Positions 18,539 to 35,112 of a stretch of DNA of 35,112 bases are shown here, one piece after another. The position numbers were made by a program, and so were the translations under genes. Position 1 is the first letter of the stretch, and the number at the start of each line of letters is the position of its first letter. The stretch comes from an uncultured bacterium (GTDB lineage: Bacteria > Patescibacteriota > Minisyncoccia > Moranbacterales > GWC2-37-73). Location: the NCBI GenBank assembly GCA_903824515.1, contig CAIJXA010000119.1:1-35112 (forward strand), in the 5' to 3' direction. The notes under the pieces are model-generated. The model was not told the origin of the DNA. It did not search any database and was given only the letters and a program-made list of their open reading frames with translations.

Positions 18539-21500
18539 TTGTCTAGCAAAAAAACCAAAAAAACACTGAAAAAATCTTCATCAGAAATGCGGGTTTTTTC
18601 TGTTGGGCATTATTCAGCTTCAAAAAAGATTTTGATAATGCGAAATATTGAAAAGCGCCTTGATTTTAAAGAAATTAGCCTGAGCTTAAAGTTTTTTTCA
18701 AAGCATCTTTTTTCAATAACAAATAAATCAATTTTTTTGGCACATAAATTTGCTGATTTTCTTCTTAGGTTAATATTTCCGAAAAATGAAATTAAGAAAA
18801 CAAGAAAGCGCATCGTTGTTAGTCAAAAAACCCTGAAGGAGTTTATTTTCAAGCATGAGGCAAAAAATGAAAGTCATGGCGAGAAATATTGGAAGCGATA
18901 TTATCTTTCTGTTTTGCTAAAAAAGATGCATAAGGCAGCTGGGGATGCGCTTAAGGTCATTGGCGGTGCTTCTTGGCGTTTTTCAGTTTCATTGGGGGCG
19001 CTGCTGATTATTTTTTCAGTTTTGCCTTCAGTCCTCAGTGCGCCTCGTTCAATTTCAGTTTCAACTAGGGCTCAATGGGAAGCCGGAACACAATCAAACA
19101 CCAACGCATTAAGCTCGAGTGACGCTATTCAATTGAGTTCAGTTGGCAGCTGGAATGCTCGTGTTTGGTCGCCAACACCTGAGCCCATAAACGCAGGACA
19201 TTCTTCGGTTTCAATTGGAAATTACACCTATATTACCAGGGGACAAGCTGACAAGGCTTTTTGGCGATATGACAATAGTAAAAACAAATGGGAAACAATG
19301 CCAGATCTTCCTCAACCTGCCTACTTGGGTGCTGATATGACTTATTTATCTTCAACGGGAGATATTTATATGATTTTTGGAGGATATTCTTTGAAGTTTT
19401 ACAAATTTTCAACAACCTCTCAAACTTGGACAAAATTAACTGAGTTGTTAGATGCTCCATATTCTGGAGCTGCAATTGAAAATGACGGAACTAATATATA
19501 TTTTGCAAGAGGAAACAGTAGTACGGATTTTTATAAATATGATGTGGCTAGTGACCAATGGCTAAACAGGGCGCCCGTGACGGCAACTGTCAGTACGGGA
19601 GGAGATTTGGTTAATGGTCAGGATGGTTTCTTATATATTTTAAGAGGAAATCTGGGTGCTCAAATGTATCGCTATAACATAGCGAGCAATCTTTGGGAAA
19701 ATCGTACAGCTATAACAGCGGCCATTGCCGGAGATCAACGAGGTGCATACGCAAATGGATATTTATATTTTTTGAGATCCGGAAGTACGAATACTTTTTA
19801 TCGTTTTGATATAGCTGGCAATAGTTGGCTTGCACTTGCTGGGACAAATGAATTTGCTCCAATGGCAACAAATTCTTCTTCACTTTCTTATAACAGTAGT
19901 GAAAATAGAATTTATGGTTTTAGAAGTGTCGGCACAACAGATTTTTGGAAATTTAATCCTGCGCAAGGAACAAACGGTGAATGGATAAATCCCAAGCAAC
20001 TTATGGATGGAACCCTTGGTTTTGGTACGGGAGGAGATTTGATCTGGAACGGTCAGGTTGGGGCCTCAGCTTATCTTTATGCTACAAGGGGAGCGTCTAA
20101 TGGATTTAATCGTTATGATGTTGCCACGAATTCTTGGTCAACTAAAGCTAACTTGCCGTATAGCTTAAGCACTGACACAAAGGGTGTTTTGTGCGGTGGA
20201 AATGTATATTTTCTACAACCCGGAGCAACAACGTTTTACAGTTATACAGAAGATATCTGGACAACATTTTCGACTTCGCCAAATATTTTACCAGCCGCCG
20301 CCGGCGCTGGTAGTTCCATGGCTTGTGCCTCTGATAATGCAATTTATGCAATCAGGGGCGGAGGGACAAGTTCTTTTTACAAGTATGTTGTTGGCACTGG
20401 TTGGAGCACTCTTCCTGCAACTACTATTGGAACTGTGACCTATAATGCAAATATTGGTGCACGCGTTGTGGCAATTGGTACCAATGTTTACGCAATGATG
20501 GGTAATGGAGAAACGGCCTTTTTGAAATACAATGGAACAGTTTGGAGCTCGCTTAAGGCCACGCCCTTTGCCCAATATTACGGAACGGATATGACGACCT
20601 ATGGCGGAAAGATTTATGCAATTGCGGGCTATTATAAAAATGAATTTTGGGAATATAACCCAACTTCTGATGCTTGGAGAATGCTGCCGGAAAATCAGAA
20701 ATATCTTTTCGGCCGCGGGCCATATAACGGAGCATCGATTGAATATGCTGGGGGAACGTCATTTTATGCAACAACCGGTCAAGGCCTAGCAGATATGTGG
20801 AGCTATACCGGTTCTGCTACAAATTTTGTCTCTGCTGGAAATTACGTTAGTAAAACATTTGACCTTTCACATGTTGACAATTGGTTGTCATTTATTGCTA
20901 CCGATGCAAAACCCGCCAATACCGCTATTGCCTATGAAACCAGAACAAGTAGTGATCAAAGTTCCTGGTCAATTTGGCAAACAGTTTCAGGCACAAATAT
21001 CCAATCACCAGTAAATAGATATATTCAAGTGCGAATTAATTTGAGTACAACTGATGGCGTCAGTACTCCAACAGTTAATAATTTTCAAATTTCCTATAAT
21101 GCTGAAGAAAATTCTCCAAATAATCCGACCGTGATAAATGCTTTTTCTCAAAATGGTGGCGGACAAACACTTGCTTCTGGCAGCACGTATGCATATGACC
21201 ACCCATATTTTCAATGGTCAGGAGCAACGGACGCAGGATCTGGCGTAACAGGTTACTATGTATATTTTGGCTCAGACAATCAGGCAGACCCGGCTGTTAG
21301 TGGGATTTATCAAACAGCTTTGAACTATTTGGTCAATGACCCGCTTGAGCAAACAGCTCAAAACCAAGCAAAACCTTATTATCTACGGATTAAAACTAAA
21401 GATAACAATGGAAATATAAGTAGTGCCACTTGGCAAGCATTTACTTATGTTTATGGTGGAGCCTCGCCAATTCAGAGTCAAACAATTTCAACTAAAGACG

Positions 21501-24500
21501 ATTTTGACAAGGGAACTTTTTCTAGTAGCGTTTCTCGCAAAAATTTACCAACAGATGATGGCTCAATTAATCTTACTGGGATAAGTGGCCTTTGGAATCA
21601 AAGCAGGCTTTCAGTTCTTCCAGGTGGAGTGAGTTATGGAGCTGAATTTGCCTTGGGAAACTGCCAAGGTAACAGTAATCACTGCATTTATACGGCAGCA
21701 GGTAACAATTCTAATGTTTTTTATCGTTATGAAATTGAAACGGATACCTGGTCAACCAAAGCTGTTATCCCAACATTAGCGGCAGCTGTTTATTATGGTG
21801 GTTCACTTGTGGAAGGACCTCCAGGATATTTATTTTTGGCAAAAGGATATGTGCAAGCATCATTTTTGCAATATGAAATCGCAACTGACACTTGGACAAG
21901 TGTTGATAGTGCACCGAAGAATTTTGATTATGGAAGTAATCTTGCCTATGATGGCAGCCGATATATTTATGCAATGCCTGGTAATGATGACGCTGCCTAT
22001 CGTTATGATACTTGCAACGGGCAAGCGGGTTGCACGAGGGGTTGGACAACTCTGGCCAACGCAAATTTTGGCAATCCAAACACCGTAGATGGCCAAAAAG
22101 TGTATGAAGGTTCTGACAGTGTTTATGATAATCGAAACAATATTTACGTGCTGCAAGGAAATTTGTTACCTTACTTTGCAAAATATTCTATCAGTGGAGA
22201 CGCTTCTCATGGTGAAATTCACAACACCTGGACACCACTTGCTCCTGCGCCGGAAGGATTTTACGACGGCGGGAGTTTGGCTTTTGATGAAGCTTCCCAA
22301 TCAATTTTTGCTGTTGGCGGAAACAACGCAGGCACAGCAAATACGATTCAGAATTTCTACAAATATGACATTGCCTCAAACACCTGGTCAGTATTGCCTA
22401 ATGTCCCAGGGTTGGTGAGCTATGGAGGTTCAATGGTCAGCTATAATGGATATTTGTATTTGCAAAGAGGTGTTGGAACAACTAATTTTTATCGATTTAA
22501 TATTTCAAAAAATACTTGGGAGTTGCCGAATAATGGATTTTTTGGTCCAGCCGTGCCAACCGGAAACGGAACTGGAGTGAATTCATTTTTTCCATATACC
22601 GCTGGAACCTTTATGGTTTCTGATGGAGTTCAAAATTTGTTTATAACCAGAGGGGGCCTGGATAATACCTTTGGAAAATACGATGTCAGGACTGGTACTT
22701 TTAATGAGCTTGCCAGGCTTCCGGTTGGAGCAACCACTGGCGCGAGCATTACCTATGACAAAGATGATGGAAATATTTATTACGTTCCAGGAATTTTAAG
22801 TACTACTCGAACTGGATTTACAACGTATTTTTATAAATACAGTGTTGCAACCAATGTTTGGAGTGAAATTACAACTGATAGACCGCCAGGACAAGTGACG
22901 ACGGGATCAGCAATGACCTATGATGGAAGTCGCTACCTTTATTTAACTCAGGGTTCAAGCTATGTTTGGTGGCGTTATGATCCTCAGGGTGCCAGTGGAT
23001 CTCGATGGTCTGTGATGACACCAATGACGGCTGGAGCCTGCGTGGGAACAGCTGGAGATGGTTCAAAAATTATTTATAAAGGCGGTTATATTTATGTGAC
23101 CAGAGGCGGAACTACAACATCTGCATGTCGTTTCCAAATCGGAGGAGCATGGGCGGCGATGGGAGCTCTTCCTGCCACGGTTGCTGGCGGATCGGGAATT
23201 GCAGATTCAGGTGATGGATATTTGTATGTCACCAGGGGTGGCAACACAAATGATTATTATCGATATGATACGACACAGTCTTTGCCTGGCGTTTGGCAAA
23301 CGGTAAGTTCAACTGTTGACATGAAAGTTCCTGCCCTAGTGACAACTGGCGGTGTGCAAGCTTTTGCCGACAATAAAAATTGGATTATTTCAGGAGCTGG
23401 CACTAACTCATATGCTGATGGTCTTTATAGTTATTTGATTGGTTCAACTGGAAATGGAACTGGTTTTATGAAGAATGGTACTTACACTTCTCCTGTGCTG
23501 GATCTAGTCTCGGTTTATCATTGGGCAAATTTAACGGTTAATTATACCAAACCACTCAACACTTTTGTGAGTTTTGAAACACGAAGTTCTGCGGACGGTG
23601 TTAGTTGGTCCGCTTGGACTGTAACACTCAATGATAATGTTTCAGCAACGAAGCACATAATGACAATAAGCTCGCCGACTGCAACTTTTCTGCAAATCAG
23701 AGCTTCATTTTCTTCGTCAGATCAAGTTTATTCTCCAAATATTACTGACATGAAAGTAAATTATTATCAGGACACTGTTGCGCCAAACAATCCTTCGTCA
23801 GTGACTGCCTATAGCGATGCGTCTCGAGTAACTCAAATTCTGGAAGGCACTTGGGATAAACATCCAAATCCGAGTTTTGTTTGGCCTGAGGCAGCAGCTA
23901 CTGGAGGAGCAATGGATAATCCTGGCGGATCTGGAATTGCGGGATACTATGTTTATTTTGGTAATGATTCTAATGCTGACCCATTTACGCTTGGAACATT
24001 TCAAACTTCCAATGTGTACAATGCTGCTAATCTTATTTCTGGCAAGGCATATTATTTGAGAATAAAAGCTATTGATAATGCAAATATGATACCGGCAGAA
24101 AGTTACAGTGGCTTTGTGTATCAATATGATACGATTTCTCCTACGAATCCAACTACAATCTCCGTAACCCCAACGGGTTACACTGCAATAGATAAATATG
24201 ATTTTCTGTGGACTCCTGACGCAACGGATGATTATTCTGGAGTTGCCAAATTTCAATATCGAACTGATGGGGACGTTGCGAATGTCTGGAATGATATAAG
24301 TGATCCTAGTCTTTTCCAATTAACTATTCCCAATGCGAATCACGCAGCCGGTGCGTATCAATCAGGAAAAAACAAGTTTTATTTGCGAACTGTTGATAAT
24401 GCTGGCAATTTTTCCGAACCAATTGTGCAAGAATATTATTATAGCGCCAGCGCGCCGACCCCACCCCAAAATTTGGTAGTTGCACCACAAACTTCTCAAG

Positions 24501-26263
24501 TAAATTTCTTCTCTTTTTCTTGGGATCAGCCAGCTTCTTTTGTGGGCGAGTCTGACAAGCTCACATACTATTACTCAATAAATGTTTTACCAACTCCGAA
24601 CAATGTGGTGGCAACAAATTTGCAATCCGCAGGACCTGGAGCGTTTGCAACTCAGCGAGGACAAAACACCTTCTTCGTAGTGGCAGCTGATCAAGCTGGG
24701 AATGTTGAGTTTAACAATTATGCCTCGGTAAATTTCTTTGCAGAAACTTCGGCTCCAGGAGTTCCTGGGAATATTCAAATCTTTGACACATCTGATCGTG
24801 AGAATGCAGAATATAGCATTGCTGTTAAGTGGGTCAAGCCTGATGAACTTAGTTTGGGAAATTTTGATGGATATGTGATTTATCGCAGTGAAGACAATGT
24901 GAATTTTTCTGAAATCGCCAAAACAACCGGCAGCGCTTATGTGGACACGAAATTGGAAAGTAAGCTCTACTATTACTATATTAAGTCAAAAGATAAAACA
25001 AACAACTATTCAATTGCTTCAACCACTGTCAGCATTATACCAACGGGAAGATTTACTACCCCTCCTAAATTAGTCGGAACTCCAACAAGCAAAATGCAGG
25101 CATTTCAGGGAGAAATAGCTTGGGTCACTGATCGGGCGGCCAGTTCATTTGTGGAATATGGCAAGTCAATTGCACTTGGTCAAACAACCGGACAGGTTGA
25201 TTCGCTGACAAATCACATTGTTTTAGTTAAGGGACTAGACGCTGGCACAAAATATTTCTATCGAGTTAAATACATCGATCCAGATGGAAACATTGGTACT
25301 TCGGAAATAGATACTCTTACGACCTTGCCGCCGCCAACAATTTCAGAAGTTGTCGTAAGTGACATTCAACTTAGCACTGCTTATGTTTCTTGGAAAACAA
25401 ACACCAGCGCAACTTGCATCCTTGACTATGGCAGTGGCTCTTCGATGAGCATCAAGGAGGAATCTGGCGGATCAAGTCATGTGCAGAAAATTGACAAGCT
25501 TATGCCGGCAAATGACTACAAAATTCAAATCAGTTGCCTAGATAGTGATGCTAATAATTTTAAGTCTGATGAATATTTGTTTTCAACTCCCGAGGAGCCA
25601 ACCGTTTCGAATATCACTATTGATAATAAGGAAAATGTTGATTTGCCAACAATTGTAATAGCCTATAAGACAAATGTTCCAACTACAACCTATATTTTGT
25701 TTAAGGGAGCTCAAGAATCAGGTCAACACACTTATCTTATCAGTGATCGCACCCTCGAGCATAGCGCAGAAATAACAGGGCTAGATCCCTCAGTTGAATA
25801 TACCCTGCAAATCTCTGGCGTGGATGAGCATTCTATTGCTGCCAAGAGTGTGGAGCAAAAAATCACAACCCGTTTTGACTCGCGTCCTCCGGTGATTGTC
25901 ACAAGTCGGGCTATTGGAAAAGTCATGGGTCGTGGCAAGAGCGCACAAGCAAATGTTTACATTCGGGTAGAAACAGACGAACCAACAAAAATAAAAATTG
26001 GTTATGCTAAGGGTATTGTTACAAAATCTTTTGAGCAAACAGCAGCCGATGATGCTTTCAATACATATCATCTAATCACTATCCCAGCAGAAACAGGGCA
26101 GGTGTATAGTTATCAAATAAGTGCCTTTGATGAGGCGGAAAATGTTACAAACTCTGAGGCAATGACGATTGCGGTTGATCAATCGCGTGCTAATGCAACT
26201 GAGGTTATCACGAGCACTTTCCTCAATCAATTCGGTTGGATCTCTAAATTAGGTGGAAATTAA
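18539..26263 (+). CDS. Giant (2574 aa) membrane-anchored surface protein with two kelch-like beta-propeller blocks, two jelly-roll-like modules and multiple FN3-like modules
   Basis: Single long ORF; basic ~140-aa N-terminus then a TM (FSVSLGALLIIFSVLPSVLSA); ~11-12 repeats of F-Y-[KR]-[YF]-D-x(3-4)-N-x-W...G...L-Y-x-x-R-G per block; duplicated YYVYFG(S/N)D module; C-terminal FN3/PAP-like repeats. TTG start preceded by AAAGG. Confidence 0.88.
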   Translation: MSSKKTKKTLKKSSSEMRVFSVGHYSASKKILIMRNIEKRLDFKEISLSLKFFSKHLFSITNKSIFLAHKFADFLLRLIFPKNEIKKTRKRIVVSQKTLKEFIFKHEAKNESHGEKYWKRYYLSVLLKKMHKAAGDALKVIGGASWRFSVSLGALLIIFSVLPSVLSAPRSISVSTRAQWEAGTQSNTNALSSSDAIQLSSVGSWNARVWSPTPEPINAGHSSVSIGNYTYITRGQADKAFWRYDNSKNKWETMPDLPQPAYLGADMTYLSSTGDIYMIFGGYSLKFYKFSTTSQTWTKLTELLDAPYSGAAIENDGTNIYFARGNSSTDFYKYDVASDQWLNRAPVTATVSTGGDLVNGQDGFLYILRGNLGAQMYRYNIASNLWENRTAITAAIAGDQRGAYANGYLYFLRSGSTNTFYRFDIAGNSWLALAGTNEFAPMATNSSSLSYNSSENRIYGFRSVGTTDFWKFNPAQGTNGEWINPKQLMDGTLGFGTGGDLIWNGQVGASAYLYATRGASNGFNRYDVATNSWSTKANLPYSLSTDTKGVLCGGNVYFLQPGATTFYSYTEDIWTTFSTSPNILPAAAGAGSSMACASDNAIYAIRGGGTSSFYKYVVGTGWSTLPATTIGTVTYNANIGARVVAIGTNVYAMMGNGETAFLKYNGTVWSSLKATPFAQYYGTDMTTYGGKIYAIAGYYKNEFWEYNPTSDAWRMLPENQKYLFGRGPYNGASIEYAGGTSFYATTGQGLADMWSYTGSATNFVSAGNYVSKTFDLSHVDNWLSFIATDAKPANTAIAYETRTSSDQSSWSIWQTVSGTNIQSPVNRYIQVRINLSTTDGVSTPTVNNFQISYNAEENSPNNPTVINAFSQNGGGQTLASGSTYAYDHPYFQWSGATDAGSGVTGYYVYFGSDNQADPAVSGIYQTALNYLVNDPLEQTAQNQAKPYYLRIKTKDNNGNISSATWQAFTYVYGGASPIQSQTISTKDDFDKGTFSSSVSRKNLPTDDGSINLTGISGLWNQSRLSVLPGGVSYGAEFALGNCQGNSNHCIYTAAGNNSNVFYRYEIETDTWSTKAVIPTLAAAVYYGGSLVEGPPGYLFLAKGYVQASFLQYEIATDTWTSVDSAPKNFDYGSNLAYDGSRYIYAMPGNDDAAYRYDTCNGQAGCTRGWTTLANANFGNPNTVDGQKVYEGSDSVYDNRNNIYVLQGNLLPYFAKYSISGDASHGEIHNTWTPLAPAPEGFYDGGSLAFDEASQSIFAVGGNNAGTANTIQNFYKYDIASNTWSVLPNVPGLVSYGGSMVSYNGYLYLQRGVGTTNFYRFNISKNTWELPNNGFFGPAVPTGNGTGVNSFFPYTAGTFMVSDGVQNLFITRGGLDNTFGKYDVRTGTFNELARLPVGATTGASITYDKDDGNIYYVPGILSTTRTGFTTYFYKYSVATNVWSEITTDRPPGQVTTGSAMTYDGSRYLYLTQGSSYVWWRYDPQGASGSRWSVMTPMTAGACVGTAGDGSKIIYKGGYIYVTRGGTTTSACRFQIGGAWAAMGALPATVAGGSGIADSGDGYLYVTRGGNTNDYYRYDTTQSLPGVWQTVSSTVDMKVPALVTTGGVQAFADNKNWIISGAGTNSYADGLYSYLIGSTGNGTGFMKNGTYTSPVLDLVSVYHWANLTVNYTKPLNTFVSFETRSSADGVSWSAWTVTLNDNVSATKHIMTISSPTATFLQIRASFSSSDQVYSPNITDMKVNYYQDTVAPNNPSSVTAYSDASRVTQILEGTWDKHPNPSFVWPEAAATGGAMDNPGGSGIAGYYVYFGNDSNADPFTLGTFQTSNVYNAANLISGKAYYLRIKAIDNANMIPAESYSGFVYQYDTISPTNPTTISVTPTGYTAIDKYDFLWTPDATDDYSGVAKFQYRTDGDVANVWNDISDPSLFQLTIPNANHAAGAYQSGKNKFYLRTVDNAGNFSEPIVQEYYYSASAPTPPQNLVVAPQTSQVNFFSFSWDQPASFVGESDKLTYYYSINVLPTPNNVVATNLQSAGPGAFATQRGQNTFFVVAADQAGNVEFNNYASVNFFAETSAPGVPGNIQIFDTSDRENAEYSIAVKWVKPDELSLGNFDGYVIYRSEDNVNFSEIAKTTGSAYVDTKLESKLYYYYIKSKDKTNNYSIASTTVSIIPTGRFTTPPKLVGTPTSKMQAFQGEIAWVTDRAASSFVEYGKSIALGQTTGQVDSLTNHIVLVKGLDAGTKYFYRVKYIDPDGNIGTSEIDTLTTLPPPTISEVVVSDIQLSTAYVSWKTNTSATCILDYGSGSSMSIKEESGGSSHVQKIDKLMPANDYKIQISCLDSDANNFKSDEYLFSTPEEPTVSNITIDNKENVDLPTIVIAYKTNVPTTTYILFKGAQESGQHTYLISDRTLEHSAEITGLDPSVEYTLQISGVDEHSIAAKSVEQKITTRFDSRPPVIVTSRAIGKVMGRGKSAQANVYIRVETDEPTKIKIGYAKGIVTKSFEQTAADDAFNTYHLITIPAETGQVYSYQISAFDEAENVTNSEAMTIAVDQSRANATEVITSTFLNQFGWISKLGGN

Positions 26264-31968: not shown

Positions 31969-32724
31969 ATGGGTCATGCTTGGACTCCCGAAGAAAGGAA
32001 ACAAAAAGAGGAAAGTGGGCAAGGAAAACCTAATAATAATTTCGCAGAAAATGAATATCCACAAAGACTCGGATTAGTTAGGCAATATTTAAATAAACTA
32101 ATAGATAATCATCATAGTGGAGACAAAGATAATGAAGATTTTTGTCGGGAACGTTTGATGGACTTAGATTGTGGAAATGAAAGAGTGGTCATGGAATTTT
32201 TGGAGGATGCTTGCCCTCACTCAGATGGAAAAACTCCAGAAAGAGCAGAATTGACTGAATGGAGAAAGGCAGTTTTTGAAATGAGTAAGGAAATGCATGT
32301 TGAGGCAAGTTTTAGTTCGGATGAGATCAGCAATTTTTTAATGGAAGAATTTGAAGAAAAAATGGTTGAAATGAATTTAGAACTAGAAAATAACCCTAAC
32401 TCTTATAATGCAGATGATATAAAAAAATGGGATAAGGAGATATCAATTTGGCAGGATGCTTCGGAAAGACTTTTTAAAGGTTTTGATGCTGCTGAGCTTG
32501 CTTTGTCGTTAATTGAAAAAGAAATCGACGATTTGACAGAATATATTCAGGGCGCAAAAAAAGCAAAAGAAGAAGCATTGAAATCAATAACAAAAGATCC
32601 AGCTGATGTTATGAAAAGAATAAAAGCTCGCACGGAATCCATTGAAAATTATTTTGAAAAATTAAAAAGTTTCAGACGGATGAGAAATTCAATTTATGAG
32701 GCTATGTTTAAAGGTCAAAAATAG
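31969..32724 (+). CDS. Hypothetical coiled-coil/charged protein
   Basis: Intact 251-aa ORF, highly charged, helix-rich; no recognised motif. Confidence 0.6.
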   Translation: MGHAWTPEERKQKEESGQGKPNNNFAENEYPQRLGLVRQYLNKLIDNHHSGDKDNEDFCRERLMDLDCGNERVVMEFLEDACPHSDGKTPERAELTEWRKAVFEMSKEMHVEASFSSDEISNFLMEEFEEKMVEMNLELENNPNSYNADDIKKWDKEISIWQDASERLFKGFDAAELALSLIEKEIDDLTEYIQGAKKAKEEALKSITKDPADVMKRIKARTESIENYFEKLKSFRRMRNSIYEAMFKGQK

Positions 32725-32741: not shown

Positions 32742-32769
32742 TTGACATTAAAATTTGAGGTGTTAAGAT
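32742..32769 (+). promoter_or_regulatory. Predicted promoter of ileS T-box leader (TTGACA-N16-TAAGAT)
   Basis: Perfect -35 at 32742-32747; -10-like 32764-32769. Confidence 0.5.
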
Positions 32770-32963
32770 AAAAGAAAGGTTATGAGGGAGCTATCACTCT
32801 CTCGTCCAGGTGAAATTTTCGCTTTGCGAATTTCACTGGGCAAGCTGCAAAAAGAAATTCTCCAATAAGGTGAAAATTAGAATTTGTCGGGTAGGCCCGT
32901 AACAGCCGGAAAGAGGGCTTTAGCTTCATTAGCTGCGTTAGTTTTTAGGAAAATGAATTTTTT

Positions 32964-32994
32964 CTATAAGCTATAAGCTATAAGCTATAAGCTA
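32964..32994 (+). repeat. Tandem CTATAAG x4 (plus CTA) within T-box leader
   Basis: ctataagctataagctataagctataagcta. Confidence 0.95.
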
Positions 32995-33023
32995 AACTAA
33001 GGTGGTACCACGGAATTATTTCG

Positions 33024-33056
33024 TCCTTATGCATTTTTTGCGTAGGGATTTTTGTT
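33024..33056 (+). terminator. T-box-controlled intrinsic terminator
   Basis: 10-bp stem (two G-U) followed by TTTTTGTTT; overlaps antiterminator strand. Confidence 0.8.
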
Positions 33057-33103
33057 TATTCTCTACGAAATACGAATTTTACGAATGTACGAAAAATTTA
33101 ATT

Positions 33104-33200
33104 CCTCCCTTTAGAAAAGGGAGGTTGGGAGGGATTTGAAAAATTTTCTTCGTAAATATAGTTTTTCAAATCCACCTTAATCCTCCTTTTCTAAAGGAGG
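33104..33200. repeat. MITE-like inverted repeat, copy 2, between T-box terminator and ileS ORF
   Basis: CCTCCCTTTAGAAAAGGGAGGTTGGGAGGGATTTGAAAAA ... TTTTTCAAATCCACCTTAATCCTCCTTTTCTAAAGGAGG. Confidence 0.9.
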
Positions 33201-33250
33201 AAAAAATAAATTTGTTGGATTTAAGATATTAATAATTTTAGATAAAACAT

Positions 33251-35112
33251 ATGAACTTTAAGAAAGTTGACGCCGGACAAAGTTTTCCGAAGATGGAGGA
33301 GGAAATTTTGAAATTTTGGCAGGAAGAAAAGATTTTTGAAAAATCTTTGGAAAAAACCAAGAGTGGGAAACCCTACACTTTTTATGATGGACCGCCGTTT
33401 GCGACGGGCACGCCTCATCATGGGCATATTGTGGGCAGTGTGATGAAAGATGTGGTGCCGAGATTTTGGACAATGAAAGGACGACATGTGGAAAGAAAAT
33501 GGGGTTGGGATTGCCATGGGCTGCCGATTGAAAACATTGCTGAAAAAGAATTGGGTTTCAAGCATAAAAAAGACATCGAGGAATATGGTGTTGATAAGTT
33601 CAACGAGTTTTGTCGCAGCAAAGTTTTGGGTTATGTGGATGATTGGAAAAAAGTAATCAACCGATTGGGCCGCTGGGCTGACATGGAAAATGCCTACAAG
33701 ACCATGGATTTGAAGTATATGGAATCAGTTTGGTGGGTTTTCAAAGAATTGTGGGACAAGGGCCTCATTTACGAAGGTTATCGCTCCATGCACATTTGCA
33801 CGCGCTGTGAAACTACACTTTCTCAGCAGGAAGTTTCCGAAGGTTACAAGGATATCAAGGATTTATCAGTGGTTGCGAAGTTCGAACTGGCCAGCGAACC
33901 GGGAACTTTCGTGTTGGCATGGACGACGACGCCATGGACCTTGATTGGAAATGTGGCGCTGGCGGTGGGGAAAGATATTGAGTATGAATATTTACAAATA
34001 GATGCTAGTGATAGCGCTAAATTCAATAAGGGCGATATTTATATTGTAGGTTTGGAAAAAATTAAAAATGCATCAGGAGGAACTTTAGCTGTTTATGATT
34101 GGGGATACAATGTTAATTTTGCAAATGAGGGTAACGTTTCTTTTAAGCGAATAAAGACCATAAAGGGTTCTGATCTGATTGATAAAACCTACAAGCCGCT
34201 TTTTGATTATTATCAAACTCCTGATTTGGAAAATGCGGAAAACGGTTGGAAAATTTATGCAGGGGATTTCGTGACCACGGAAGATGGCGTGGGCGTGGTG
34301 CACATTGCGCCGGCTTTTGGGGAAGACGATATGAATTTGGGTAAACAATATGCTTTGCCATTTATTCAACATGTGAAAATGGATGGAACCATCAAAGAGC
34401 AAGCGACTGACTTTGCTGGCATGAATGTGAAATCTTTGGAAGATCATATGCAGACGGACATTGAAATCATCAAATATTTGGCCAAACATGGCACGCTTTT
34501 TTCCAAAGAGAAATATGAGCACAGTTATCCGCATTGTTGGCGCTGCGACACACCGCTAATCAACTACGCAACCACTTCTTGGTTTGTCAGTGTTGGCAAA
34601 GTGAAGGAGCGAGCCCTTGAGCTCGCCAAGGAAATCACTTGGTTTCCGGCGCATATCAAAGATGGACGTTTTGGAAAATGGTTGGAAGGTGCGAGAGATT
34701 GGTCAATTTCTCGCCAGCGTTTTTGGGCATCCGTGATGCCAATCTGGCGCTGTGAATGCGGGGAAATGAGAGTTTTTGGCTCGGTAACTGACCTGGAAAA
34801 AGTTTCAGGTGAAAAAATAGCAGACCTGCATAAACACATTGTTGACAAAATAACTGTCCCATGCGAAAAGTGCGGAAAACAAATGCACCGCGTGCCTGAC
34901 GTTTTGGACACTTGGTTTGATAGTGGTTCGATGCCGTATGCTCAAGAGCATTATCCATTTGAAAATCAAGCAAAATTTGAAAATGGATTTCCGGCTGAGT
35001 TTATCGCGGAAGGCGTTGATCAAACTCGCGCTTGGTTTTATTATTTGCATTTGATTGCCACGGCCATCAAAGACAAAAACGCTTTCAATCACGTGATTGT
35101 TAATGGCATCGT
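33251..35112 (+). CDS. ileS: Isoleucyl-tRNA synthetase, N-terminal part (truncated by window edge)
   Basis: YTFYDGPPFATGTPHHGHIVGSVMKD, WGWDCHGLPIENIAEKELG, AWTTTPWTLIGNVALAV; open to window end. Confidence 0.95.
   Translation, partial: MNFKKVDAGQSFPKMEEEILKFWQEEKIFEKSLEKTKSGKPYTFYDGPPFATGTPHHGHIVGSVMKDVVPRFWTMKGRHVERKWGWDCHGLPIENIAEKELGFKHKKDIEEYGVDKFNEFCRSKVLGYVDDWKKVINRLGRWADMENAYKTMDLKYMESVWWVFKELWDKGLIYEGYRSMHICTRCETTLSQQEVSEGYKDIKDLSVVAKFELASEPGTFVLAWTTTPWTLIGNVALAVGKDIEYEYLQIDASDSAKFNKGDIYIVGLEKIKNASGGTLAVYDWGYNVNFANEGNVSFKRIKTIKGSDLIDKTYKPLFDYYQTPDLENAENGWKIYAGDFVTTEDGVGVVHIAPAFGEDDMNLGKQYALPFIQHVKMDGTIKEQATDFAGMNVKSLEDHMQTDIEIIKYLAKHGTLFSKEKYEHSYPHCWRCDTPLINYATTSWFVSVGKVKERALELAKEITWFPAHIKDGRFGKWLEGARDWSISRQRFWASVMPIWRCECGEMRVFGSVTDLEKVSGEKIADLHKHIVDKITVPCEKCGKQMHRVPDVLDTWFDSGSMPYAQEHYPFENQAKFENGFPAEFIAEGVDQTRAWFYYLHLIATAIKDKNAFNHVIVNGI

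Follow-up and report, generated by a model that had tools for sequence, protein, structure and literature searches.

A short Stem I in T-box leaders is reportedly the subject of a 2015 paper by Sherwood on Actinobacteria. Class III T-boxes have been characterized by a short Stem I without an IDTM, an apical specifier loop of 5-6 nt and a Stem II; a K-turn accompanies the class and lies outside its definition (PMC10482949). T-boxes that act on transcription "generally require" a long Stem I with an IDTM, the rationale for this elbow-binding element being that the tRNA must be caught before polymerase arrives at the terminator (PMC7583486), and the ileS T-boxes of Actinobacteria are translational (PMC1262725). 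T-boxes have been described for few phyla (PMC2494555). TBDB ran its class II model on class I hits with a truncated Stem I (PMC7778990), so that transcriptional cases with a short Stem I may already sit there unremarked. We found no paper that joins T-boxes with Patescibacteria or the CPR; subscription journals were mostly uncovered, so novelty is provisional.

The window, by which we mean the whole stretch of 35,112 nucleotides that was analysed, carries a T-box leader of ileS at 32776-33054 (+), whose features are collected in Table 1. An earlier note, drawn up from the sequence alone, had claimed for this leader a short hairpin, GAGGGAG-CUAUCA-CUCUCUC, presenting AUC followed by A in a 6-nt terminal loop, together with ileS as its target, a UGGU bulge matching A73 of the tRNA and a T-box overlapping an intrinsic terminator. 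The coordinates of the hairpin were confirmed, the gene starting at 33251 matches TIGR00392 above the cut-off, the host tRNA-Ile(GAU) does have A73, and CCUU at 33025-33028 falls within a hairpin (33023-33049) followed by a U-run. Set against the published classes, the leader has the short Stem I without IDTM, the specifier in an apical loop of 5-6 nt, the Stem II with S-turn and the IIA/B pseudoknot of Class III; the long Stem I with IDTM and the internal specifier loop of Class I are absent, no K-turn is found at the base of Stem I, and the output is an intrinsic terminator instead of a translational switch. Its folding energy lies 4.8 sd below that of dinucleotide shuffles.

Table 1. The ileS leader and its surroundings: positions in the window.
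Feature	Position	Strand	Remarks
Promoter TTGACA, 16 nt, TAAGAT, extended -10 (TG)	32742..32769	+	10/12 consensus letters
Stem I basal helix, 5' strand GGUU	32778..32781	+	pairs with AGCU 32843-32846
Ultrashort Stem I hairpin, loop CU-AUC-A	32782..32805	+	7 bp (GAGGGAG 32784-32790, loop CUAUCA 32791-32796, CUCUCUC 32797-32803), extendable to 9 bp (32782-32790 with 32797-32805); specifier AUC 32793-32795, then A 32796, in apical loop; 4/4 family upper-stem pairs show compensatory changes
Inserted hairpin, 3' side of K-turn site	32804..32841	+	-18 kcal/mol for 32804-32843; K-turn GA absent
Stem II	32847..32887	+	lower helix GCAAA/UUUGU (5/5 pairs covary in family), S-turn strands AGAA 32853-32856 and UUAGAA 32877-32882, upper helix
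Stem IIA/B pseudoknot	32888..32907	+	CGGG/CCCG 32888-32899; loop GG 32894-32895 with CC 32906-32907; relatives show compensated variation at both IIB pairs
Long Stem III region	32910..32996	+	4.4 heptamer copies CTATAAG at 32964-32994
Antiterminator	32999..33028	+	T-box UGGU 33003-33006, complementary to tRNA-Ile ACCA (A73)
Intrinsic terminator, 11-bp hairpin and U-run	33023..33054	+	overlaps antiterminator 3' strand
ileS (isoleucyl-tRNA synthetase)	33251..35110	+	TIGR00392, 655.9 bits against a cut-off of 621.4; runs past window end

ARAGORN found one tRNA-Ile (among the best 30 tRNA loci), with anticodon GAU, A73 and no encoded CCA. It matches both the T-box UGGU and the specifier AUC, an isoleucine codon in keeping with the ileS gene downstream. 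UGGU sits within AAGGUGGUACCACGG, and the terminator hairpin that takes up the CCUU strand of the antiterminator is followed by UUUUGUUU. At -14.5 kcal/mol the terminator is more stable than the free antiterminator (-5.2), so termination should occur by default, and the binding of tRNA has to make up the gap in energy, as it does in known T-boxes.

We conclude that this is very probably a Class III T-box riboswitch controlling ileS by transcription attenuation. Computation gives it a conserved and covarying anatomy, a match between specifier and tRNA, a mutually exclusive antiterminator and terminator, and a promoter in position; binding of the tRNA, sensing of its charging and the response itself, readthrough included, would proceed by analogy with known T-boxes. 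The leader RNA would begin at about 32776, and the specifier AUC at the tip of Stem I would pair with the GAU anticodon of tRNA-Ile, with the IIA/B pseudoknot positioning the Stem II S-turn to clamp the codon-anticodon duplex. If the tRNA were uncharged, its ACCA end would pair with UGGU, the antiterminator would be held and polymerase would read through into ileS; if it were charged or absent, CCUU would join the more stable terminator.

The anatomy does not rest on the window's own folding. Presented with an alignment of 16 compact ileS leaders of relatives, window excluded, RNAalifold recovered unprompted the basal and upper helices of Stem I, the lower and upper helices of Stem II, and IIA, with compensatory changes in 15 of the 20 pairs. 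When the two pseudoknot pairs are added, 94.3% of cells are paired (27-46% in slid controls) and two-sided changes occur in 18/22 pairs. On covariation the alignment scores 0.64, compared with 0.31 for shuffles and 0.07-0.19 for the slid versions; because the sequences are related, the shuffle counts are optimistic, but the slid controls agree. A covariance model (R1) built from 16 related ileS leaders, which were taken as ileS although the gene call of a few (L016, for example) is unconfirmed, finds the window leader at 55.5 bits (E = 4e-9) though it was absent from the training set. The 5' pattern of ileS leaders in relatives is typically RGC-NNUGA-GGAG-[NNAUCA]-CUCC-GGAGCY, followed by GCGGG-AAGAAA...GUAGAA-CCCGC, CGGGUARGCCCGUAAYAGC and GGUGGUACCACG with the terminator.

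Some features of the window stand apart from this core. The heptamer copies that form one arm of Stem III are perfect, and in several relatives this site holds arrays of other short repeats; judged by these arrays, Stem III seems to grow by repeat expansion. Positions 18539-26263 of the window are a single open frame of 2574 aa. Between the terminator and the start of ileS (33086-33221), and again at 1616-1697, lies an imperfect palindromic repeat that has the character of a MITE- or REP-like element; across the genome it gives 27 overlapping matches, which fall on both strands and at more than a dozen places. Matches to miRNAs at 33086-33221 were rejected as products of the repeat's imperfect palindrome.

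Where the window departs from its insert-free relatives is at the base of Stem I. In ileS leaders without an insert (n = 21) the upper stem has 4-6 bp and the 3' GA of the K-turn is present in 19/21. Among those with at least 17 bases between upper stem and S-turn (n = 13), the stem has 4-9 bp and the GA is absent in eight, namely the window and seven others, all with an insert; note that some GA calls in the other five may be chance letters of the insert. The window itself combines a 9-bp upper stem with the inserted hairpin, and we infer that in its subgroup a three-way junction stands in for the K-turn. The basal helix, which covaries in relatives, is weak in the window, where it contains two G-U wobbles. 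In the class III RNA studied, loss of the K-turn would impair tRNA binding (PMC7583486). Given the weak helix and the missing K-turn, the window copy could therefore be a weakened switch or, further, a degenerate remnant that inherited its T-box anatomy and with K-turn loss became a constitutive attenuator. We consider such a remnant unlikely: the window copy has kept its specifier, S-turn, pseudoknot, UGGU and terminator intact, and several relatives also carry the form with the insert, their specifier and terminator likewise preserved, a recurrence that argues for selection. Whether any T-box works without a K-turn is a question posed in a review (PMC7583486), to which, if the leader is indeed a working attenuator, the leaders of the window's subgroup are candidate answers.

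A translational T-box as in Actinobacteria, with the hairpin at 33023-33054 merely incidental, is the reading suggested by the class III T-boxes of PMC7583486, PMC10651847 and PMC1262725, which are translational; that mode of output does not enter into how the class is defined. It is nevertheless very improbable here. The terminator and its U-run overlap the antiterminator, and a terminator beginning at the antiterminator 3' strand is kept in 27/35 related ileS leaders, against 0.5 expected from a shuffle control; this shuffle-controlled scan replaced a permissive one, discarded because it called a terminator in 78/78 leaders. Moreover, the ileS ATG lies 196 nt beyond the terminator and its Shine-Dalgarno sequence is not clear, so there is no ribosome site for the terminator hairpin to hide.

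The search with RF00230, the Rfam T-box leader, that the earlier note had proposed matches 32848-33031 with 39.9 bits (E = 1e-6), below the gathering cut-off of 93 and with the model's long Stem I skipped. That note had also held its reading open to a longer Stem I upstream of 32776, where we find an upstream gene or ORF that stops at 32724 and a promoter that ends at 32769. Taken alone the promoter is weak, as shuffles of the region contain 1.7 promoter-like sites; it directly precedes the conserved start of the aptamer. Its position would put the 5' end of the RNA at about 32776, two bases 5' of the Stem I basal helix, so that a longer Stem I could not be fitted in upstream. That the leader is a canonical T-box with a long Stem I, recognized in its 3' part alone, is thus scarcely credible: RF00230 does align end to end with Stem I skipped, yet gene end and promoter leave a long Stem I no place, and in relatives the aptamer has an identical starting point.

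The joining of a Class III aptamer to a terminator is not peculiar to the window. Its host genome (1.26 Mb, 99% complete) probably belongs to Patescibacteria; the earlier note's presumption of a CPR host agrees, indirectly, with the genome size, with those of phylum-mates (0.5-1.7 Mb) and with a search of the host genome for ribosomal protein uL30, which was not found. At E <= 0.001 per genome, R1 finds the aptamer in 94/132 genomes of the order and 95/381 of the phylum, with about 0.4 false matches expected in the 381, keeping in mind that E-values from this model are rough. Among the best phylum matches, most of those with a parsable leader carry a T-box 27-71 bases downstream, together with a tRNA synthetase gene. 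The combination of aptamer and terminator, which the earlier note had called unusual, is so relative to the literature; within the phylum it is not rare, and in the host's order it is the norm. From the sequences, this pairing appears to be a standing design in the whole order, spread over the phylum. The standard model misses it: among 57 genomes examined, the host's own being one of them, 46 carry T-boxes, and not one of these T-boxes passes the Rfam cut-off.

R1 also matches aspS-type and cysteine synthase leaders, and the specifier changes with the gene. Ahead of aspS-type genes it is GAC (loops CUGACA in L009 and UCGACA in L145) or AAC (UCAACA in L033, CAAACA in L142 and L148). Loops read by eye, and less certain, are GUGGCU for Gly, CUACCAA for Thr, CGUGCG for Cys and CUAGUCA for Val. 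On this reading of the loops the same aptamer serves Asp and Asn besides Ile, and probably Gly, Thr, Cys and Val. Before genes other than ileS the terminator is found in 7/23 leaders (0.26 expected), by a gapless criterion that overlooks bulged hairpins. In L018, L033 and L148 aspS-type genes lie beneath an apparent Asn (AAC) specifier, which suggests that their AspRS may also charge tRNA-Asn.

The host genome holds one RF00230 match besides the window's. A second kind of T-box, with a much larger 5' domain, occurs at L002 (contig C13 of the host's own genome), L046, L054, L036 and L039, where it precedes a gene for a YbdK/GshA-like carboxylate-amine ligase and, among relatives, trpD; its specifier could be UGG or UGC.

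The pairing of a short Stem I with a terminator runs counter to the customary association of Stem I length with the mode of control. These leaders, presuming they function as predicted, are natural counterexamples to the need of transcriptional T-boxes for a long Stem I. They would make T-box control common in a large uncultured group of bacteria and give direct hints, of a kind rarely available, to how these bacteria sense amino acids. Tentatively, and stopping short of calling it likely, we suggest a phylum-wide, undescribed branch of T-boxes in which a Class III aptamer is joined to termination for no fewer than three tRNAs (Ile, Asp and Asn, with Gly, Thr, Cys and Val probable in addition) and the IDTM is unneeded for a decision before the terminator. 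The K-turn would be dispensable in the window's subgroup, with a three-way junction instead, and the long, repeat-built Stem III would perhaps buy time.

Compared with known systems, the leader is closest to the Class III ileS T-boxes of Nocardia farcinica and Mycobacterium tuberculosis. It shares with them the ultrashort Stem I without elbow-binding IDTM and AUC plus A in a loop of 5-6 nt (PMC10482949, PMC7583486), the Stem II with S-turn, the IIA/B pseudoknot, the T-box discriminator and the ileS target. It differs in its output, an intrinsic terminator where theirs is Shine-Dalgarno sequestration, in the extra hairpin that replaces the K-turn in the window's subgroup, in the long repeat-built Stem III, and in belonging to another phylum, where the aptamer apparently also serves Asp, Asn and probably Gly, Thr, Cys and Val. 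With the transcriptional Class I T-boxes of Firmicutes such as B. subtilis it has in common the antiterminator-terminator arrangement, Stem II, the IIA/B pseudoknot and, presumably, the response to uncharged tRNA, whereas it lacks their long, IDTM-bearing Stem I and their internal specifier loop. Relative to RF00230, the 3' half, with antiterminator and T-box, aligns, at a score that, as for all relatives, is below the cut-off.
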